From the IMG/VR virus record IMGVR_UViG_3300048930_001372, positions 1-49,837 of that record: a stretch of DNA of 49,837 nucleotides; one strand, written 5' to 3'. Every line of letters begins with the position of its first letter. Position 1 is the stretch's first letter. The notes under the pieces were generated by a model. It was not told the origin of the DNA. It saw only the letters and a list, made by a program, of their open reading frames with translations, and searched no databases. This stretch comes from a virus. Shown here piece after piece: positions 1-49,837 of this stretch. The position numbers and the translations under genes were made by a program.

Positions 1-42
1 TTAATCCGTAGGTCCCTGGTTCGAGCCCAGGTCGAGGAGCCA
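1..42 (+). tRNA. tRNA-Asn (GTT), 3' part, cut by the window edge
   Basis: The bases fold as the 3' part of tRNA-Asn: TTAA (1-4, end of the anticodon loop), anticodon-stem strand 5-9, variable loop 10-14, T stem CCTGG (15-19) and CCAGG (27-31) around TTCGAGC (20-26), acceptor strand 32-38, discriminator G39 and CCA 40-42. The sequence closely follows the 3' half of E. coli tRNA-Asn. The 5' part, including the G of the GTT anticodon, would lie just outside the window. The CCA end is kept on the prophage side, so the tRNA should stay functional, but its normal terminator now seems to lie at 47983-48016. Confidence 0.85.
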
Positions 43-62
43 CTTGTGCTTGCTACGAACCG
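1..62. other. attL: left prophage-chromosome junction
   Basis: The host half is the end of tRNA-Asn (1-42). The phage half contains an 11-bp arm GCTACGAACCG at 52-62. The stretch shared with the right junction is only GGAGCCA (36-42), as expected for a serine integrase, which needs only a very short common core. Position 37 is the centre of symmetry of the reconstructed attP. The 3' end of the recombinase gene runs antisense through the whole site. Confidence 0.75.
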
Positions 63-1581
63 GTTGCCCGTCGGTACACACGACGAGGCAATCGGGCCTG
101 TAGTGCACCGTCACCGTATCGTCGTCGACCTCGATCGACTCCACGATGGTCGCCACGTAGGCGCGCACGGCCTTGATGTCGGCAGCCTGCGTCAGCGTGC
201 GGCGAATCACATCGGCCGCCTCCTGCGCCGTCACCGTCAGCGGGCCGACCACCGGGTCGGGCTCGTCCTCCAGGTTCATCAGCGCCACTTCCATGCGCTG
301 CACCTGGTCGGTCAGGTCGTTCACGCGCTTCAGCGCGCCGCGGATGTCGGGCATGTCCTTGCCCAGCGTCTCCATCATCTCGTAGATCTTCTCGCGCTTG
401 TGCTCGGCGTTGCGCAACTCCAGCACCATGGCCGTGCGCCGCGCGGCTCGGTCCTTCACCCAGCGGGCCGCGGCGGCGTCCATGTGGTCCAGCACGCGCT
501 GGATCACGTCGACGTTCAACACCTTGTCCAGCAGGTCGTTCAGCATGCGCTTGTCGAAGGCGTCGGCCGGTATTGGCTTCAGCGGGCAGGGCTTGCCCTG
601 CCGGTCGCCCCTGCAGGCGTAGTAGTGGTAGAGCTTGCCGTTGCGGCCGGTGCCGTTGGTCATCTGCAGCGACGACTGGCACAGCCCGCAGCGCATCAGT
701 CCGCTGAACACATGCTGGGCGGTGCCGGGTGACTGGCCCACGCCTGGCGCGCGCCCTTCCAGGGCGGCCTGCACCTTGGCAAAGTCGTCGTCGGTGATCA
801 GCGGCTCGTGCGACTGCACGCGCACCCAGGCCTCGGGCGGGCGCTGCATGCGGCTCTTGCGGTCGAAGCGGTTGTAGATGACGCGTCCCATGTAGACCTC
901 GCTCTTCAGCATGTGGAGCACGGTGTTCTTGCTCCATTTCTTGCCGCGCATCTTCAGGCCCTGGCGGTTCAGCTCCAGTGCCATGAAGTACGCCCCCTTG
1001 CCCTCCAGCGCCTGCCGGAAGATCAGCTTGATGACGGTGGCCTCGGGCTCCAGCGGCTGCAGCCGGCGGCGCTTGCCGTCCGGCGCCGGCGCCGCCTGGT
1101 AGCCGTACGGCACGCGCCCGCCCATGAAGTAGCCCTCGCCGGCGGCCTTGATCATGCTGCGCTTGGTGTCGGCCGACACCTGGCGCGAATAGCTCTCGTC
1201 GATGATCTGCGCAAAGCTGTCGAGCATCCAGCCGTCGTTCGACTCCAGGTCCACGCTGGACTGCGCGTACACCAGCTTGGTGCGGCTGGCCACCAGCGTG
1301 CGCTTGAATACGATGGCGTCGTGCTGGTCGCGTGCGAAGCGGCTGCTGCTCCAGCACACCATGTACTGCACGTCGCCGGCCTCGCAGCGCTGGATGGCAC
1401 TGCGGAAGCCCGGGCGGGCGCTGGTGGTGCCGGAGATGCCCTCGTCCTTGAACACGTGGATCACCACTGCGCCCAGCTCGGCGGCCTTGCGGTGGCAGGC
1501 CTCGATCTGGCTGTCGATCGACAGGCCCTCTTCGGCCTGGCGATCGGTGCTGACTCTGGCGTAGATGACGGCCCGCTTCAT
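1..1581 (-). CDS. Large serine recombinase (prophage integrase), 3' end supplied by tRNA-Asn
   Basis: A 526-residue serine integrase that probably integrates and excises this prophage. The N-terminal resolvase domain (about 1-150) has the catalytic serine in YARVSTDRQ (Ser11) and conserved arginines, for example in SSRFARDQ. A Recombinase domain follows (about 160-275), then a zinc ribbon (CGLC and a later CRG...CPL cysteine pair, about 300-345) and a coiled coil (about 375-440). ATG 1581 fits the family start; upstream in-frame codons do not look coding. The last residues, LDLGSNQGPTD, and the TAA are read antisense from tRNA-Asn. In the excised circle the frame instead runs into 47967-47879, giving a 29-residue tail and a 544-residue protein. 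Confidence 0.93.
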   Translation of the reverse strand: MKRAVIYARVSTDRQAEEGLSIDSQIEACHRKAAELGAVVIHVFKDEGISGTTSARPGFRSAIQRCEAGDVQYMVCWSSSRFARDQHDAIVFKRTLVASRTKLVYAQSSVDLESNDGWMLDSFAQIIDESYSRQVSADTKRSMIKAAGEGYFMGGRVPYGYQAAPAPDGKRRRLQPLEPEATVIKLIFRQALEGKGAYFMALELNRQGLKMRGKKWSKNTVLHMLKSEVYMGRVIYNRFDRKSRMQRPPEAWVRVQSHEPLITDDDFAKVQAALEGRAPGVGQSPGTAQHVFSGLMRCGLCQSSLQMTNGTGRNGKLYHYYACRGDRQGKPCPLKPIPADAFDKRMLNDLLDKVLNVDVIQRVLDHMDAAAARWVKDRAARRTAMVLELRNAEHKREKIYEMMETLGKDMPDIRGALKRVNDLTDQVQRMEVALMNLEDEPDPVVGPLTVTAQEAADVIRRTLTQAADIKAVRAYVATIVESIEVDDDTVTVHYRPDCLVVCTDGQPVRSKHKWLLDLGSNQGPTD

Positions 1582-2648: not shown

Positions 2649-3179
2649 ATGAGGGTCTGGGGATTCGTGGCGCTTCTGATCGGCGTGCTTGGCTTCATTG
2701 GTTCGTCGGCGATGGACACCAGCGTGTCAACGGGAGACCCGGGGCGGCGTGTCCACAACATCGGCCTCATGCAACAGCAGCAGAACATGCTGCTGACCTT
2801 CGCACTGTTGGGCATCGGCGGGGTGGTCATGATGGTGGTTGGCGGGCGGCGAAATGCAACGGCTGCCAAGCAGCAAGAGGATGCAGCCAGCCTGCGACCC
2901 TGCCCCTTCTGCGCGGAGCCCATCAGGGTTGAGGCCATCAAGTGCAAGCACTGCGGCAGTGACGTGGCCGCGCACGCGGCCGAGGAGAACGCGCGGCGAG
3001 AGGCCGCGGTGGCGGCACAGGCCGAGGCAGACAAGGCGCTGGCAGCCAAGCCGAAGGGGCAGTGTCCGAACTGCAGTGCAGTCATACCGCTGGACAGTGC
3101 CGTCTGCCCGAAGTGCGACGCAGCGTTTGGCGTCGGGTCGGCCTGGGTTCTGAAACCGGTGGCATCGGATCGATCATGA
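2649..3179 (+). CDS. Membrane protein with two zinc ribbons
   Basis: A 176-residue protein with two N-terminal membrane segments (about residues 3-22 and 39-58), a charged Ala/Glu-rich stretch and two zinc-ribbon motifs: CPFC...CKHC and CPNC...CPKC, the second near the C-terminus. A likely topology puts the ribbons in the cytoplasm. I chose the ATG at 2649 because GTGGAG lies about 7 bases upstream; an in-frame ATG at 2613 has no such signal. It is one of very few plus-strand genes in the prophage and overlaps the convergent gene at 3174 by 6 bp. It may be a separately expressed accessory (moron) gene; no specific function can be assigned. Confidence 0.65.
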   Translation: MRVWGFVALLIGVLGFIGSSAMDTSVSTGDPGRRVHNIGLMQQQQNMLLTFALLGIGGVVMMVVGGRRNATAAKQQEDAASLRPCPFCAEPIRVEAIKCKHCGSDVAAHAAEENARREAAVAAQAEADKALAAKPKGQCPNCSAVIPLDSAVCPKCDAAFGVGSAWVLKPVASDRS

Positions 3180-3641
3180 ACGCTTCCGGCTCGCTTGGGC
3201 GAGCCGCTCTATGTGGCGCCGGCTGAGTTTTTCACCCAGCTCGCTGTGCACCATGGCGTAGATCTCGATGGGCTTCAGCCCGGCGGCCACCAGCGTGTCG
3301 ATGTAGCGGTTGCGCTGGTAGCGCTCGTAGCTGCGGAAGGGCCGCAGCCGCAGCTCGATCTGGTCGTCGTCGTCGCGTAGCTCGGGCTTCGACGACAGCA
3401 GGCGCCACATGGCGACGAAGGCGTCGTAGCCCAGCAGCCGCGCCACCGACAGCCAGGTCGACGACAGGCCGATCTCCTGCAGCTCGCGCAGCCGAAGGTC
3501 CTGCGCGACTTCTGGCGGTGTGCATTCGTCCAGGTACCCACCTCCCCCCTGGGGGGGGTCGGACAGGGCCTGCCGACCCCCCACCCCGGGCTCAGCAGTG
3601 CTCGCTGCATGCACTGCACTGCGCATTTCAGAGTCAGCCAC
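3174..3641 (-). CDS. Putative DNA-binding protein with C-terminal HTH
   Basis: A protein of about 155 residues whose C-terminal half (YQRNRYIDTLVAAGLKPIEI through SRRHIERLAQ) looks like a helix-turn-helix distantly reminiscent of Mor-type activators. I chose the GTG at 3641 because GGGAGG lies 6 bases upstream; GTG 3695 and ATG 3626 are alternatives. The first 45 residues are Gly/Pro-rich and are encoded over a strong hairpin (3553-3582), so they may not be truly coding. It lies between the two recombinase genes and could regulate one of them. Confidence 0.5.
   Translation of the reverse strand: MADSEMRSAVHAASTAEPGVGGRQALSDPPQGGGGYLDECTPPEVAQDLRLRELQEIGLSSTWLSVARLLGYDAFVAMWRLLSSKPELRDDDDQIELRLRPFRSYERYQRNRYIDTLVAAGLKPIEIYAMVHSELGEKLSRRHIERLAQASRKRS
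3553..3582. repeat. Strong hairpin within the 5' part of an HTH gene
   Basis: A perfect 10-bp inverted repeat, GGGGGGTCGG (3553-3562) and CCGACCCCCC (3573-3582), with a 10-base loop that can extend the stem by two more pairs. It is flanked by further C and G runs. It resembles GC-rich intergenic hairpins or insertions rather than normal coding sequence. No T-run follows on either strand, so it is not a typical rho-independent terminator. Confidence 0.6.
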
Positions 3642-3848
3642 GCACCACCTCCCCAGGCAGCAGGATGCAATCCACTGCGCTTTCTCCTCGGACACGCAGC
3701 CGAGTTAGCCCGCTCCCGAGCCAAGTTCGGAGCACGCACGAGAACCCCACAGCACACCCAGGCAACCACCGCTGCGGCCGGGCCCCCCTCTTAGCGTTGT
3801 GTGCCCCAGTTCGACCGACGGGCGTCTGCATCGCCATGCTCGCTGCTC

Positions 3849-4910
3849 CTACAGCCGCTTCAGCAGCTCGCTGACCGGCGTCTTCATCTGGCTCAAAGGC
3901 CCTGCGCGATCGAGCACGCGCGCCTTGCGCACCATCGCCATGGCCGTGTAGATGCTGGTGCTCTTGGGGTCGCTGTGGCCCAGCAGTTCCTGCCGCACCA
4001 GCAGGTCCTCCTCGGCCTCGGCCAGCTGCACGCCCACCAGGTGGCGGAACGCATGCGGGTGCAGCTCGCGCTCGGGGATGTCCACCCGGCGGCCATAGCG
4101 CTGCACCATGCGCCACACGTTGTGCCGGCGCATGCGCACCGCCTCGCCCCGGTACTGGTCGGGCGGCACGCTGTGGTTGTTGGTGTTCACGAACAGCACC
4201 TTGTCCGCCCTGCCCTTGCCGTCGACCACATCACGATCGAACGCCCGCAGCCCCTCGTGATCGAGGTACACCCGCAGCAGCATCTCGGCCTCGCGCGGCA
4301 CCGGCAGGTCGCGCTGCTTCTCGCCCTTCTCGGTCAGCCGCACCACCATGCGTGGCTTGCCGCCCAGGTCCATCGTGCGCAGATCGCCCTCGTTCAGCGC
4401 CACCAGGCCGCTCACCCGCATGCCGCAGCCCATCAGCAGCGCCAGCATCGCCGCGTCGCGCATGCCGGCGAACGTGCCCAGGTCCGGCGCCCACATCAGC
4501 TTCTCGGCATGCACCAGGCTCAGCGCCGAAGGCAACGGCCGGCCCGTCTTGGGGTGCGGCAGCTCGGCCGCCGCATTGCCGCGCGCGTGGCCACGGCGCT
4601 GCAGCCAGGCATAGAACCCGCGCACCGCCGACACATACGGCTTGCGCGACCTGGCCACCACCCCGCGCTTGTGCAGCCAGATACCCGCGAAGGCCTCGAG
4701 CTCGGCCGCCTCGGCCAATACCAGCGGCTTGCCGGCCAGAAACTCCTGCAGGCGGGTGATCGCCAGGCCGTAGGTTTCCAGCGTGCGCGGCCGGCGGCCC
4801 TTGGCCGAGCCCAGATGCACCATCCACGCGTCGATCGCGGCCTGGTCGTCGATGGCGCCCGAGGGTAAACCCGGGGCAGAAATCGAGCCTCCCAGGGGGG
4901 GTAGGGGCAT
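3849..4910 (-). CDS. Tyrosine recombinase (site-specific integrase, XerC/D-like)
   Basis: A recombinase of about 353 residues (372 if TTG 4967 is used). An N-terminal SAM-like core-binding domain (TLETYGLAITRLQEFLAG...) is followed by a catalytic domain with the expected residues: Arg in GCGMRVSGL, HAFRH (HxxR), His in LLGHSDPKSTS and the Tyr of SIYTAM. The full tetrad suggests an active enzyme. TTG 4967 has GGAAGG 8 bases upstream but would run the gene through GTGGA repeats; ATG 4910 avoids that. Because the attachment sites fit the serine enzyme, this one probably has another substrate, plausibly the repeat region just upstream. It may serve as a DNA invertase, a multimer resolvase or a relic integrase. 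Confidence 0.85.
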   Translation of the reverse strand: MPLPPLGGSISAPGLPSGAIDDQAAIDAWMVHLGSAKGRRPRTLETYGLAITRLQEFLAGKPLVLAEAAELEAFAGIWLHKRGVVARSRKPYVSAVRGFYAWLQRRGHARGNAAAELPHPKTGRPLPSALSLVHAEKLMWAPDLGTFAGMRDAAMLALLMGCGMRVSGLVALNEGDLRTMDLGGKPRMVVRLTEKGEKQRDLPVPREAEMLLRVYLDHEGLRAFDRDVVDGKGRADKVLFVNTNNHSVPPDQYRGEAVRMRRHNVWRMVQRYGRRVDIPERELHPHAFRHLVGVQLAEAEEDLLVRQELLGHSDPKSTSIYTAMAMVRKARVLDRAGPLSQMKTPVSELLKRL

Positions 4911-4915
4911 TTCTC

Positions 4916-5300
4916 GCGTGGATCCGTGGAAGAGCCCCGATTCTGCCGGAAAACCAAAGCGCGACAAGCACTTAGCCTTCCACGGCTTCCACCGAAAACC
5001 CGTGGAAGGCCCTCACAACCCGTGGTTACAAAGCTGACGCTCGATTAAGACCTGTGGAAGTCCGCTCCCCCTTCATTCTTCTCTTTCTTCAATCAAATCA
5101 AAGAGTTAAGTAATAATATGGGGAGTATGCGGGTAAACCCGACATGTGGAACAACAGGCCGATTCCGTGGAGAAAATGACCCTACCTGTGGAATATCACT
5201 GCGTGTATACGCAGGGTCCGCGCTTAGTGCCGCAACGATTCTGGCACTTTGTAACCACGGGTCCACGGGTTTCTGGAGCATGCCTGGGGTCCCCGTGGAC
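4916..5300. repeat. Array of GTGGA repeats upstream of the tyrosine recombinase
   Basis: Twelve copies of GTGGA occur in about 380 bp. Plus-strand copies start at 4918, 4926, 5002, 5054, 5146, 5167, 5188 and 5295; minus-strand copies (TCCAC) are at 4979, 4988 and 5262, and a variant GTGGT is at 5022. The wider consensus is CYGTGGAA. Chance would give about one. They may be binding sites for the neighbouring recombinase, a repressor or an initiator. The surrounding gap 4911-5535 holds no convincing gene; its centre (5080-5125) is AT-rich and 5300-5535 shows nothing else recognisable. Confidence 0.75.
5018..5262. repeat. 16-bp inverted repeat enclosing a 213-bp AT-rich segment
   Basis: ACCCGTGGTTACAAAG at 5018-5033 recurs exactly, inverted, at 5247-5262. 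The enclosed segment 5034-5246 has a possible promoter, TTCAAT (5088-5093) and TAATAA (5111-5116) with 17-base spacing, facing right. The arrangement, next to a tyrosine recombinase gene, is like an invertible promoter switch. Each repeat contains the GTGG core of the surrounding array. Inversion itself is not shown by the sequence. Confidence 0.65.
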
Positions 5301-10807: not shown

Positions 10808-11775
10808 GATGCGCCGCCCCCGCCGGTCTGCGCCTGGTGCTCCAGCAGCACCGGGTCCTTCTCGGCCTTGGCCCGCGCCGCGCTCATCGTGCCGGGAAGC
10901 TTTTCCAGCGCCGCGGCCATGCGCTCGCCGAAGGCCTGCATCGCCTCGGCTGCCTGCACGCCCGGGTTCAGCCGGCCCTTCAGCTCGGCGTCCTCGTCCT
11001 CGGCCGCCTTCACCGTCATGCCCAGGTCAGCCAGGCTCAGGCCCAGGCGCGTCACCAAGTCGGCAATCGGCTTGAAGGCCGGGTTGGCCGCGTAGTCGTA
11101 GACGTAGCGCAGCTCCCCGTTGGCATCCACGTAGCTGATGCGCTCGTGCCGGCCCTCGCCGTCCTTGTCGAGCACCCATTCCAGCTTCGGCGTCTTGATC
11201 ACCACCCCGTCGCCCAGCACCGTCTGGATGCACAGCTGCAGGCTGGCCACCAGCGCCGCGTGCAGGTCGCTGTGCACGCGGGCCAGCACCTTGGGGTCGC
11301 GCTGCTCGAAGGCCGCGTGGTGCAGCATGAACAGCTCCGTCTGCTTCACGCAGGCCGGCTGCGCGTCGCACCAGTCGCGGTCCACATCGCAGCGCTTGCA
11401 GAAGCTGTAGCCGTCGGGCTTGCTGGGGAAGTACGTCGCCGTGCGCGCGTTCAGCCCGTGCTTCATGCCGTTGAAGCGCGTGCGCAGCGCCTCCTCGGGC
11501 GTGGGGTGCCCGGCCAGGTTGGCCGCCGTGGCCGCCTTGCCCGCCGGCGTGCGCGGCCCGGTCGACGCCTGGTGCGCCTTCAGCAGCGCCCGCTCCCACG
11601 GCGCCTGCGGCTGGTGCTTCGCATCGCAGACCGGGCAGTTGCCGAAGTAGCGGTACGGGTGGTGCGGCGCGTCCTCGTCCGGCTCCACCAGGTCGGGCCT
11701 GGCCGACCAGGTGTGGCGGCACACCTGGCAGCGGAACGTCACCTGCTGCAGCTCATCGGACCAGTCCTTGCGCAT
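10804..11775 (-). CDS. Zinc-binding protein upstream of terminase, possible small terminase
   Basis: A 323-residue protein with an N-terminal Cys pair set (CQVCRHTW...CPVCD), a conserved central region STGPRTPAGKAATAANLAGH followed by FNGMKHGLNARTATYFPSKP, and a second cluster FCKRCDVDRDWC. The C-terminal third is helical and Ala/Glu-rich. Its place directly upstream of, and overlapping, the large terminase gene suggests a DNA-recognition (small terminase) role. I cannot confirm this from a known motif. ATG 11775 is the only good start. Confidence 0.55.
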   Translation of the reverse strand: MRKDWSDELQQVTFRCQVCRHTWSARPDLVEPDEDAPHHPYRYFGNCPVCDAKHQPQAPWERALLKAHQASTGPRTPAGKAATAANLAGHPTPEEALRTRFNGMKHGLNARTATYFPSKPDGYSFCKRCDVDRDWCDAQPACVKQTELFMLHHAAFEQRDPKVLARVHSDLHAALVASLQLCIQTVLGDGVVIKTPKLEWVLDKDGEGRHERISYVDANGELRYVYDYAANPAFKPIADLVTRLGLSLADLGMTVKAAEDEDAELKGRLNPGVQAAEAMQAFGERMAAALEKLPGTMSAARAKAEKDPVLLEHQAQTGGGGAS

Positions 11776-22244: not shown

Positions 22245-22441
22245 GGCACCGGCACCAGGTTGCCGAAGTCGTCGACCACGGCTTGCTGCGAATTGAGGAC
22301 CCGCCAGCGGTCGCTTTCCACCCAAGACAGGCCGCATGTGAAGACGTGCGTGAACCCGGGGCGCGCGCCACCGCCCCAGCGGAACCACACCAGCGACAGC
22401 TCGCTCTCGCCGCCGCGGCTGTGCGTGCGGCTCTTGCTCAC
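22241..22441 (-). CDS. Hypothetical protein (66 aa), GTG start
   Basis: Starts at GTG 22441, overlapping the stop of the small tyrosine recombinase (GTGA). Contains SELSLVWFRWGGGARPGFTH and SDRWRVLNSQQAVVDDFGNL, both strand-rich. No family recognised. Confidence 0.5.
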   Translation of the reverse strand: MSKSRTHSRGGESELSLVWFRWGGGARPGFTHVFTCGLSWVESDRWRVLNSQQAVVDDFGNLVPVP

Positions 22442-23118
22442 GCCACACCTCCCTGCCCCGCTGCCAGCTTCTTCGCCGCGCGCTTGCTCATGCGCCCGCC
22501 GTCGATGGCCTGCAGGTCGCGCACGTACTCCTCGCGCGCCATGCGGGTGTAGATGCCGGTGCTGGCGATGCTTTCGTGCCCCAGCGCCTGCTGCACCACC
22601 TTCAGCGGGTTGCGGCTGCGCGAGCGATGGATGATGTTCATGCCCCGCGTGTGGCGCAGCCAATGCGGGCTGATGCGCGGGTCCAGCCCGGCGGCCTTGG
22701 CCCACAGCTTCATGCGCGCCTGGTAGCTGCGCACCGACATGCCGTCCGCCTGGCCGGCCACCAGCGCGCGCCCCCACACCAGCGGCTCCGGCCCGTTGTG
22801 GATGCAGCGCAGCAGCGCGCTGGACTGCAGCTCCAGCAGCGCCTCCAGCCCCTCGCGCACGCTCTGCGTCACCAGGTACTCATGGCCGTGCCGGCCGCCC
22901 TTGCGCTGCTCGGCCCGCGTGATCAGCCAGCCGCTGGCCAGCGCCTGTTCGGCCTGCTGCGCCGTCAGCAGCGCGAACTCCTGCACCCGCATGCCGGTGC
23001 CGATCAGCAGCCGCATCCAGTGGTAGTCGCGCAGCGCCAGCGGGTCGCTGCTGCCCTTGGCGGCGCGCAGCAGCGCCTGCTGCTCGGCCTCGGTGAGGTA
23101 TCGCCTCATCATGTCCAT
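22438..23118 (-). CDS. Tyrosine recombinase with catalytic domain only
   Basis: A 226-residue recombinase with Arg in GTGMRVQEFALL, a basic beta-hairpin region (ITRAEQRKGGRHGHEYLV), HWLRH (HxxR), His in ALGHESIASTG and the Tyr of IYTRM. It starts directly in the catalytic domain; the usual N-terminal core-binding domain is absent. ATG 23118 is set by AAGGAG six bases upstream, so it is a real short protein and not a truncation. It is the first enzyme of the early operon. It could cut phage DNA sites, resolve multimers or work with the other tyrosine recombinase. Confidence 0.82.
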   Translation of the reverse strand: MDMMRRYLTEAEQQALLRAAKGSSDPLALRDYHWMRLLIGTGMRVQEFALLTAQQAEQALASGWLITRAEQRKGGRHGHEYLVTQSVREGLEALLELQSSALLRCIHNGPEPLVWGRALVAGQADGMSVRSYQARMKLWAKAAGLDPRISPHWLRHTRGMNIIHRSRSRNPLKVVQQALGHESIASTGIYTRMAREEYVRDLQAIDGGRMSKRAAKKLAAGQGGVA

Positions 23119-23193: not shown

Positions 23194-23589
23194 TCAGCCT
23201 TGCGGCCGTCGTCGTCGCGCGGCCTTCAGCGGCGCCGCGCCGCGCGCGCCAGCCAGGCGCGGCGCGCGCAGATCAGCAGCAGTCGCCGGCGCTGCGCATC
23301 CGCCAGCGCCGCTTCCAGCGACGGGTAGGTGCGGTGCCAGTACGGGCGCTGCTCGTAGATGCGCCGCGCGGCGGCCAGCACCGCGGGGTCGTCCAGGTCG
23401 GGCAGCGGCAGGTCCATCGGCAGCGGCGGCTGGGCCGGGTGCGTGTCCATCGGCAGGCCTCCAGGGCGCGAAGGCCTGCAGCAGCGCCTCGCGGAACAGG
23501 AACACCATGCGTTCGGCCACCACCGGCGCGGCCGGGGCCATGCCGGGCGGCAGCGCGTGCTGCAGGCGGCGCTCAGGCTTCGTCGACAT
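23194..23589 (-). CDS. Hypothetical protein (131 aa) overlapping another gene
   Basis: The ATG at 23589 has GGAGG nine bases upstream inside the preceding gene, so initiation here is likely. The first 47 residues (MSTKPERRLQHALPPGMAPA..., MVFLFREALLQAFAPW) look coding, but the rest is low-complexity Ala/Gly/Pro/Arg and overlaps another frame (23226-23450) that looks more coding. Either the two genes truly overlap, or ribosomes shift frame. Function unknown. Confidence 0.4.
   Translation of the reverse strand: MSTKPERRLQHALPPGMAPAAPVVAERMVFLFREALLQAFAPWRPADGHAPGPAAAADGPAAARPGRPRGAGRRAAHLRAAPVLAPHLPVAGSGAGGCAAPATAADLRAPRLAGARGAAPLKAARRRRPQG
23226..23450 (-). CDS. Hypothetical protein (74 aa) with its own internal start
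   Basis: ATG 23450 has GGAGG seven bases upstream, within the frame of the gene starting at 23589. The protein (MDTHPAQPPLPMDLPLPDLD...) has a good helical region (PAVLAAARRIYEQRPYWHRT, SLEAALADAQRRRLLLI) and a basic end. It is offset by one base from the frame of 23194-23589. No family recognised. Confidence 0.6.
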   Translation of the reverse strand: MDTHPAQPPLPMDLPLPDLDDPAVLAAARRIYEQRPYWHRTYPSLEAALADAQRRRLLLICARRAWLARAARRR

Positions 23590-24058
23590 CGACGTAGTCC
23601 TCCAGCCGGCGCACCAGCGTCATGAGTGCGCTCACGATGTCGAAGGCCTCGCCGCGGATCACCCGCAGCGACTCGGCGCTGAAGCGCTTCTCGCGCAGCC
23701 CGTGGCCCAGCTCGCGGTGGAAGTCGCCGCTTTCGGCGGCCAGGTTGGTCACCAGGTCGAGCAGCGCCTCGTCGCTGGTGGACTCGTGCTGCGCGCAGTC
23801 GAAGGTGGCGCGGCCGAACATCTCGGCCAGCGCCTCCACCACGCGCAGGTCGCCGGTGGCCTGCGTGGCCAGCACCACGTCGCGCAGCGTGGGCTGGCTG
23901 TGGGTGTCGTCGCCGGCGTCGGCCTTGTTGTACAGCGTGCCCGGCTTCAGCCCCATCTGCGCGGCCAGCGTGGGAACGTCGCCGCGAAACACCAGCGTGC
24001 GGAAGGCCTCGAACACGTTGGGCGCCACCGCCCGGCGCAATGCGTGCTTAGCGGCCAT
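23573..24058 (-). CDS. Phage regulatory protein CII-like (Phage_CP76 family)
   Basis: A 161-residue protein with the Phage_CP76/CII pattern: ALRRAVAPNVFEAFRTLVFR, an HTH-like DVPTLAAQMGLKPGTLYNKA, and HSQPTLRDVVLATQATGDLR followed by VVEALAEMFG. The C-terminal third is helical and may form the oligomer. Such proteins activate or tune lysogeny genes. It is the second gene of the early operon and overlaps the RHH gene upstream by 11 bp. Confidence 0.75.
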   Translation of the reverse strand: MAAKHALRRAVAPNVFEAFRTLVFRGDVPTLAAQMGLKPGTLYNKADAGDDTHSQPTLRDVVLATQATGDLRVVEALAEMFGRATFDCAQHESTSDEALLDLVTNLAAESGDFHRELGHGLREKRFSAESLRVIRGEAFDIVSALMTLVRRLEDYVDVDEA

Positions 24059-47395: not shown

Positions 47396-47647
47396 CTACT
47401 TCCCTGTCCAGCCCAGGCGCGCATATTCGCGCGCCTCTTGCTCGGGTGTCAGTCCGTCGTCCGCCAGGTGGGCCACGGCTTCGGCCAGGGTGGCGAACAC
47501 CATCAGATCGCCGACTTCCCAGTTGTCCTCGATGCGGGCGATGGCCTCGTCGAGGTCCTGCTGCGTCTCGATCTTGTGCAGATCGAGCAGGCAGCATTCA
47601 GCCTGGTAGTAGCCGAGCTGTGGGGCGGGGAATCTGGGCTGGCTCAT
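47396..47647 (-). CDS. Hypothetical small protein (83 aa)
   Basis: An 83-residue acidic protein (MSQPRFPAPQLGYYQAECCL, IETQQDLDEAIARIEDNWEV, LTPEQEAREYARLGW), mostly helical. It overlaps the upstream gene by 4 bp and precedes the boundary element. No family recognised. Confidence 0.6.
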   Translation of the reverse strand: MSQPRFPAPQLGYYQAECCLLDLHKIETQQDLDEAIARIEDNWEVGDLMVFATLAEAVAHLADDGLTPEQEAREYARLGWTGK

Positions 47648-47868
47648 CGCCTCGTTACCCGAAAGATCGACTCCATGATGGCGAGCTGCTGCTCGGCTGT
47701 GTAGCCGTTGAAGACGCCCGCCTCGATGGCCGCGTCAAGCTCCGCCCCGTTGACGCGCAGCGCTTCCTCATCGAAAGCGGCCTTGTCGTCGTCGTCCATC
47801 CAGTCTTCGTGCCAATTGGCGAGGAAGCGCTTGATGGTGTCGTGGTGCTTCAGCCGGGGCGGGCTCAT
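47644..47868 (-). CDS. Hypothetical small protein (74 aa)
   Basis: An acidic helical protein (MSPPRLKHHDTIKRFLANWH, DWMDDDDKAAFDEEALRVNG, AEQQLAIMESIFRVTRR). ATG 47868 is preferred because AGGA lies 8 bases upstream; ATG 47877 is possible. In the excised circle the native stop of the serine recombinase (47881-47879) lies just before it, so it would be co-transcribed with the recombinase. Confidence 0.6.
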   Translation of the reverse strand: MSPPRLKHHDTIKRFLANWHEDWMDDDDKAAFDEEALRVNGAELDAAIEAGVFNGYTAEQQLAIMESIFRVTRR

Positions 47869-47878
47869 GGCGTGCATC

Positions 47879-47967
47879 CTACGCCGCGGACCGCTCTAGG
47901 CCCCAGCGGCGGGCCAGCGGCACGCGCGGGATGGTCAGGGTGACGGTTCGCAGCTTGCCCGGGACGG
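47879..47967 (-). pseudogene. Detached native 3' end of the serine recombinase gene
   Basis: In the lysogen this fragment has no start. Read in the frame obtained by joining base 36 to 47967, it encodes PVPGKLRTVTLTIPRVPLAR followed by RWGLERSAA and TAG (47881-47879). This is the C-terminus that the recombinase would have in the excised phage. Its coding-like composition supports the reconstruction. Confidence 0.72.
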
Positions 47968-47974
47968 GGAGCCA
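47944..47974. other. attR: right prophage-chromosome junction
   Basis: The phage arm CGGTTCGCAGC (47944-47954) is the inverted partner (10 of 11 bases) of GCTACGAACCG at 52-62. GGAGCCA (47968-47974) is the shared core. Chromosomal sequence begins after it. The two arms are equidistant from the second G of the core. Confidence 0.75.
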
Positions 47975-48916: not shown

Positions 48917-49837
48917 GTGATCAAGACAGACATAGTGTTCCTTCTCGGCGCAGGTGCGAGCAGACCTTTTGGCTTTCCGACAGGCGCAGAGTTGCGGCGC
49001 CGAATCTGCAGCGACCTCAGCCGTGGGCAATCGCCCTTCGCTCGACTCTGCGAGTGCGGCCATTCGGACGAAGATATTGAACGATTTCGTGCCTCTTTCG
49101 AACAGTCAGGCATAGCCTCGATCGATGCGTTCATCGCATTCAGACCGGAGTTTCAGACCATCGGGGAGCACGTGATCGCGGCAATGCTCATTCCGATCGA
49201 AAGCAGCGCGAACTTGGCGAAGGGCGATTGGTATCACCTTCTTTGGAACGAGATGCTTGCCGGCGCTTCGACGCCTGAAGACCTGCTTCGAAACAAGGTC
49301 CGTTTCGTTACGTTCAACTACGACAGGTCGCTGGAGCAGTATCTCTACGACGCCATCCTCCACACGTTCGGCCTCGCTCCCAGGGTGGCCTTCTCATACT
49401 TGTTACAGATCCCAATTCAGCATGTGTATGGGTCACTTGGGGAGTACACGGAGGAGAGCGGCTATCGGTACAGCTTGCTGAAAGACGAAGACCACAAGCG
49501 TTCGATACTTGCCGCGCAGACATCCATCAAAACCGTGCCGCTGGTGCGCGGACCTACCGATGACATCAGCGCGAAGTGGCTCGCTGACGCCGAGAGGGTC
49601 TTTGTGCTCGGGTTCGGGTTCGATTCGACCAACTGCGCACGCATTGGGCTCAGAGATGCATGCAGCGCCACGGCAGATCGACACACCAGGCCGATCTTCG
49701 CTTCGGCCTACCAACTCACGCAGGCGGAGAAATGGCGGTGCGACACGAACTCCAGCCGCCAAGGACCAGGCCTGCAATGGACCAACGGTGACTGCCTCAC
49801 GCTGCTGCGCGACAAGCTCGACATGCTGCTGAGCTAA
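48917..49837 (+). CDS. SIR2-family protein
   Basis: A 306-residue NAD-binding protein starting at GTG 48917. It has FLLGAGASRPFGFPTG (GAGAS 11-15), FVTFNYDRSLEQYL (FNYD 133-136) and IPIQHVYGSLGE, where His169 fits the catalytic histidine. The C-terminus includes ERVFVLGFGFDSTNCARIGL. Bacterial proteins with this SIR2 form often act in phage defence by depleting NAD. It follows the HEPN-like remnant by 48 bp in the same direction. Base composition is less GC-rich than in the prophage. Target unknown. Confidence 0.82.
   Translation: MIKTDIVFLLGAGASRPFGFPTGAELRRRICSDLSRGQSPFARLCECGHSDEDIERFRASFEQSGIASIDAFIAFRPEFQTIGEHVIAAMLIPIESSANLAKGDWYHLLWNEMLAGASTPEDLLRNKVRFVTFNYDRSLEQYLYDAILHTFGLAPRVAFSYLLQIPIQHVYGSLGEYTEESGYRYSLLKDEDHKRSILAAQTSIKTVPLVRGPTDDISAKWLADAERVFVLGFGFDSTNCARIGLRDACSATADRHTRPIFASAYQLTQAEKWRCDTNSSRQGPGLQWTNGDCLTLLRDKLDMLLS

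Follow-up and report, generated by a model that had tools for sequence, protein, structure and literature searches.

We asked if integration of a phage changes the enzyme that catalyzes it. The window, that is, the whole stretch of DNA analyzed, is a complete IMG/VR virus record of 49,837 bp, and its first base falls inside a tRNA-Asn gene through which a serine integrase gene runs antisense. The initial annotation had placed the phage attachment site attP inside this gene, with integration changing the C-terminus of the enzyme from 544 aa (free phage) to 526 aa (lysogen). Its coordinates, namely the frame from 1581 to 1, the two core copies, the join of 36 to 47967 and both protein lengths, were all reproduced. 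The features at the two ends are listed below.

1..1581, minus strand: large serine recombinase (integrase), lysogen form, 526 aa, from the open reading frame and a domain search
1..42, plus strand: 3' half of the host tRNA-Asn, from anticodon loop to CCA; its antisense gives GAT TAA (Asp, stop)
36..42, unstranded: attL copy of the crossover core GGAGCCA (TGGCTCC on the integrase strand), from the repeat and the family alignment
48..61, minus strand: attP arm in the integrase coding sequence, GGTTCGTAGCAAGC on the integrase strand, encoding VRSK; family consensus gGTTCnYAGt
47644..47868, minus strand: small ORF, start 10 nt past the attP-form stop; it shares the direction of the integrase gene only in the free phage
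47879..47967, minus strand: orphan 3' end of the free-phage integrase gene, 29 codons (PVPGKLRTVTLTIPRVPLARRWGLERSAA) and then TAG, with homologous tails in relatives
47945..47958, minus strand: second attP arm, in the orphan tail, GCAAGCTGCGAACC on the integrase strand, encoding KLRT; family consensus CTnnGAACc
47968..47974, unstranded: attR copy of the core GGAGCCA, from the repeat, with an identical attR in the independent contig L195
47975..48018, plus strand: host side of attB, a terminator-like hairpin that would follow tRNA-Asn, in the layout of the empty sites L155 and L156

The lysogen form consisted of 526 aa ending in WLLDLGSNQGPTD, followed by TAA at 3-1, and its last 11 residues, LDLGSNQGPTD, together with the stop were the antisense of the 3' half of tRNA-Asn. 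Resolvase (PF00239), Recombinase (PF07508), and Zn_ribbon_recom (PF13408) domains were identified, all above the Pfam cut-offs, and this domain content places the protein among the large serine recombinases. ARAGORN found no tRNA within the window, because the record starts inside one; a complete tRNA-Asn was present at the corresponding place in L026, L042, L053, and L057.

The orphan tail, in which the first base of the first Pro codon belongs to the core, is in frame with the integrase gene only after excision. Joining 36 to 47967 virtually gave a protein of 544 aa ending in WLPVPGKLRTVTLTIPRVPLARRWGLERSAA (..LERSAA), with TAG at 47881-47879. We rejected the window alone as proof of a tail swap. 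The direct repeat GGAGCCA is only 7 bp long, and the 29-codon frame is weak evidence by itself because the window is GC-rich, 74% of positions on the integrase strand being open for 29 codons. It was the comparison of relatives in both states that lifted the swap above chance, and we regard the swap itself (attP in the integrase gene, C-terminus exchanged) as virtually certain.

Relatives in both states and their attachment sites

About 120 loci with related recombinases were recovered by alignment-guided searches, compared with almost none by single-sequence pattern searches. They fell into two classes, 63 lysogen forms and about 61 attP forms; the latter comprised 52 direct finds, minus L035 and L051 (not true attP forms), plus 11 reconstructed ones. 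The 3' ends of the two classes agreed up to a conserved W-L-P (TGGCTCCCC), and in pairs with 97-99% identity over the last 600 nt the sequence switched completely, exactly after this motif.

Nearly all lysogen forms ended in antisense tRNA-Asn (SNQGPTD, SNQGPAD, SNGGPAD and similar), and ARAGORN placed a tRNA at the integrase end where the DNA continued. Similar antisense read-through was seen for tRNA-His (L045, L109), tRNA-Arg (L049), and tRNA-Met (L021); L115 was also among the relatives using one of these three tRNAs instead of tRNA-Asn. Of the 63 lysogen forms, 59 had Asp as the last residue, the tRNA-Asn anticodon loop reading GAT TAA on its antisense strand, and none ended in Ala-Ala. 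The attP forms carried no tRNA at the integrase end and had a tail of 17-46 aa, counted from the Trp. They included phage yong1 (L003), which was sequenced as phage, and L005, a free-type relative with 66% identity ending in VRSKHGWLPVPGLLRTVELRLQRLAA. The recombinases of the relatives were also checked for absence of the predicted tail, and the proposal of the initial annotation withstood this check, with many relatives caught in both states. By this comparison, attP within the integrase gene, with exchange of the C-terminus, is a trait of the family.

The junctions were then compared. In 10 of the 14 chromosomal lysogens with upstream DNA, an orphan tail stood at the far prophage end, in frame behind a matching core, and terminator-like host DNA lay beyond this tail in several of them; attR was not located for L027, L030, L034, and L053. 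The attR tail of Alteromonas KUL42 (L057/L147) showed zero nucleotide differences from the attP tail of contig L020. A single 42,209-bp metagenome contig (L089 and L163) held both junctions: one terminus carried the lysogen integrase end, and the opposite terminus an attP-form tail (..FYRKRAVA, stop) preceded by an exact 127-nt copy of the integrase 3' end plus core. Most simply, both junctions were present in the sample and the 127-nt repeat is an assembly k-mer, although a tandem prophage would produce such a junction too. The attR of the window itself recurred identically in a second assembly, L195. Empty sites similar to that of the window were found in 2 of 300 genomes, and the empty attB of the exact host was not among them. 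In the similar empty sites L155 and L156, tRNA-Asn is followed by AAATAAGTAAAGCCCC and a hairpin as in the right flank of the window. Two pattern searches yielded no attP contig of the window phage, whose join is the virtual one given above.

Aligned attP forms gave the consensus gGTTCnYAGt-N10-TGGCTCCCC-N12-CTnnGAACc, a conserved inverted repeat of ~50 bp with a single dyad center inside TGGCTC. The arms are translated as V-x-S and L-x-T, and the core common to the att sites is 7-9 bp or slightly longer. Judged by this layout, attP is of the serine-integrase type and lies wholly inside the integrase gene. The window integrase would catalyze attP x attB recombination and, with a directionality factor, attL x attR; it is the products of these reactions, namely attL, attR and attP, that are seen in the sequences.

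Three loci deserve separate mention. In L035, a Gallionellales MAG, the integrase gene lacks ~23 codons just before the core (near 11470-11527) that are present in its near relative L072; the loss shifts the frame through the tRNA, and tRNA-Asn occurs once more at a distance of 40 kb. The serine recombinase of L004 (MT839362.1, human gut) is only distantly related, with 27% identity, and has an antisense tRNA-Asn end too (..GPDANRRPVD, stop), from which the arrangement may reach beyond Proteobacteria. L060 (PAPL01000087.1) is a MAG contig labeled Verrucomicrobiales; in the last 600 nt its attP-form integrase shares 99% identity with L017, an Alteromonas-type lysogen locus, and the contig is probably a free phage that was assigned to the wrong bin.

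The free-phage tail

In both forms a single ORF holds all integrase domains, and these precede attP. An AlphaFold2 model of the attP form of L005 (mean pLDDT 80; pTM 0.36, leaving domain placement uncertain) contained folded domains to about residue 499, followed by residues 500-532 at pLDDT 33-53, with one strand in the tail at low confidence only. Profile matches to solved integrases (SPbeta, A118) stopped at about 485-494. Since predicted disorder begins at about residue 500 and integrase homology ends at about 485-494, the swap would touch only an exposed flexible appendage, and the catalytic and DNA-binding domains would stay whole.

The most telling clue, on which the initial annotation did not remark, was the Ala-Ala end of the free form. 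It was present in 41 of the 61 attP forms; after clustering, the counts were 34 of 53 at 80% identity and 24 of 39 at 60% identity. Among the controls, -AA stood at the end of 15 of 500 long ORFs and of 17 of 318 unique C-termini taken from other conserved genes of these phage loci (Fisher by cluster, 4e-22 and 1e-16). Among these controls terL was high (8/31 unique C-termini, well above other genes), and the frequency in the integrase exceeded that of terL as well (p 0.004). A second attP set, found by DNA pattern instead of protein and overlapping the first, gave 25/42. Fifteen of the 16 possible Ala codon pairs were used, so that selection acts on the protein and a DNA-level constraint is excluded; codon diversity and controls together ruled out chance or a DNA-level cause. 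The window's attP form ends in SAA. About a third of attP forms lacked -AA, among them yong1 (SAS) and L050 (SAT), with -VA, -SA, -KA, -AAG and some unrelated ends in others. Residue -3 was mostly Arg or Lys, versus Leu in ssrA.

Selection on the tail beyond attP was measured in pairs picked by identity of the enzyme body (50-99%), an earlier table with pairs picked by tail identity having been discarded as biased. In nearly all pairs pN was lower than pS (pooled, 0.33 vs 0.61; L041/L088, 0.12 vs 0.71), the alignment on amino acids lowering pN slightly. A hydrophobic and basic pattern, LxT..LP.RF.RKAA, was conserved beyond attP, and the mean net charge of the tail was about +2.9. By the pN/pS values, the attP-form tail is under purifying selection at the protein level.

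Proposed function and its rivals

The initial annotation had offered three possible consequences of the swap: bias to integration, bias to excision, or instability in one state. Among these, the sequences favor instability of the free form. For ClpX to target an unstructured peptide, Ala-Ala at its C-terminus is enough, with tolerance for the preceding residue (PMC10945698), and Ala-Ala on an exposed tail of predicted disorder is what the attP forms present. Precedents exist for an -AA tagged integrase and for removal of a tag by integration (PMC9262239, PMC9635641, PMC8092301). By analogy, the Ala-Ala tail is probably an ssrA-like degron, such that the integrase of the free phage would be short-lived and integration would remove the tag.

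In the free phage, the integrase gene runs through attP into a basic, predicted-disordered tail of 17-46 aa; integration at the 3' end of tRNA-Asn puts in its place some 11 residues read from antisense tRNA, which end in Asp, the stop coming from the anticodon loop. A tag of the ClpXP/ClpAP class would shorten the life of the free-phage integrase, confine integration to those infections in which the integrase avoids proteolysis, and prevent a circle that has just been excised from integrating again. The tagless lysogen form could persist, ready for excision once a directionality factor appears. We lean, with some reserve, towards this as a stability switch on the integrase, controlled by integration, in which the degron exists only in the circular genome and antisense tRNA-Asn supplies a stabilizing C-terminus throughout a widespread family of proteobacterial phages. 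Several observations speak against a degron. The terL product, too, ends in -AA in 8/31 cases, so this end is not unique to the integrase; the conserved strand-like part of the tail exceeds the needs of a bare degron; and about a third of attP forms are without -AA, residue -3 being Arg/Lys rather than the Leu of ssrA.

The main rival reading is a directionality valve: contacts of the basic tail with DNA or with partner subunits would favor attP x attB, the tRNA-coded form being biased to excision. The conserved hydrophobic and basic pattern, the net positive charge, and the purifying selection would all suit such a role. However, the tail is predicted to be disordered with its only strand at low confidence, its length varies from 17 to 46 residues, and its most constant feature, the terminal Ala-Ala, is unexplained by DNA contact. 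We consider this reading unlikely, though worth carrying.

A by-product of chance overlap between attP and the integrase 3' end, with the two protein ends functionally equal, appears quite improbable to us. Short overlaps of attP with the 3' ends of integrase genes are known for tyrosine integrases, and the folded domains are unaffected by the swap; yet the Ala-Ala enrichment with varied codons and the lower pN of the tail indicate that the free-form end is selected as protein.

Integration would also uncouple the integrase gene from co-directional downstream genes, which in many relatives are terL and the late operon; the change of the tail could then be secondary to this effect on gene expression. 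In many attP-form contigs terL is ~1 kb downstream of the integrase gene on the same strand, and in the window a small ORF begins 10 nt past the attP-form stop (no family match was found for this ORF). Gene order varies, however, with terL upstream of the integrase gene in the window, L005, and L026, and structural genes running against it in L006, L046, L066, and L087, whereas the tail and its Ala-Ala persist whatever the order. Operon splitting as a universal function was ruled out by this variation, and an effect on expression as the primary role is very improbable. IMG/VR borders are predicted and the window begins mid tRNA, but assembly chimeras or misplaced prophage borders as the source of the two forms were refuted at the family level by isolate chromosomes with matching attL and attR and by dozens of independent contigs with matching attP, leaving this explanation a practically negligible chance.

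Relation to known systems and neighboring genes

The degron reading has its closest parallel in the integration-dependent immunity of mycobacteriophages and other actinobacteriophages, here taken from the accounts of Broussard et al. 2013 in PMC9262239, PMC8092301, PMC9934374, and PMC6109161. As in the window family, attP is in a coding sequence, and the viral form of the protein carries an -AA tag that is lost when the phage integrates into a tRNA gene; several of those phages have an -AA tag on the integrase as well. The -AA tags on repressor and integrase lead to degradation, integration strips the tag of the repressor, and protease activity sets the frequency of lysogeny (PMC9262239, PMC9635641, PMC8092301). 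There, the repressor gene is swapped and the integrase is of the tyrosine type with its own gene unchanged, whereas in the window family the serine integrase gene is swapped and the hosts are Proteobacteria. We found attP in the integrase gene, a serine recombinase at attP with tyrosine recombinases away from it, and, by sequence, an -AA end of the integrase that integration removes (41/61 attP forms, 0 lysogen forms). The window system may resemble integration-dependent immunity in its working, yet it is not a member, since attP lies in no repressor gene and the integrase is of the serine, not the tyrosine, type.

In the archaeal 'suicidal' (SSV-type) tyrosine integrases, attP also lies inside the integrase gene (PMC8371274), but integration splits that gene into two inactive parts, whereas only a flexible tail is exchanged here and all domains, upstream of attP, stay in one ORF. 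Domain order, fold, short core, and an inverted-repeat attP of ~50 bp are common to the window family and A118, SPbeta, and phiC31. Serine integrases in the literature covered have sites within ORFs and short cores (PMC8092301), and attP inside the integrase gene was reported for none of them; the window family uses tRNA genes and has attP in its own gene. An Ala-Ala carboxyl end on a flexible tail is shared with the ssrA tag and ClpX-type degrons, with the differences that the tail is gene-encoded and lost by DNA recombination, and that Arg/Lys instead of Leu is commonest before Ala-Ala. We did not find this arrangement described for serine integrases in the open literature searched, which includes only a minority of subscription papers.

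Removal of a repressor tag is known in actinobacterial phages, and the parallel here, on a serine integrase of unrelated proteobacterial phages, suggests that the lifetime of a protein became linked to the state of the DNA on more than one occasion. The proposed switch makes a clear prediction, an unstable attP form and a stable attL form; if it is true, a conserved tRNA also serves to encode part of a phage enzyme. Serine integrases are used in genome engineering as well, and database entries for the present enzymes that derive from lysogens have a C-terminus of host origin instead of the native phage one.

Two further genes form a module with the integrase gene.

3174..3695, minus strand: HTH-like neighbor upstream of the integrase gene, weak HTH_32 match
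3849..4967, minus strand: tyrosine recombinase (XerD-like), third module member, conserved among relatives

The order xerD - HTH-like - serine integrase was kept across most of the ~120 loci. The HTH-like protein, annotated 'middle operon regulator' in its yong1 homologue, is a candidate for a regulator or a directionality factor. On the host side, right of attR, an ORF at 48917-49837 starting IKTDIVFLLGAGASRPFGFPTGAEL gave no Pfam match at E<=0.1, and we presume that it resembles SIR2-type proteins. A further tyrosine recombinase lies at 22438-23118 of the window, beside a CII-like activator (23573-24058), and the phage thus has three site-specific recombinases.
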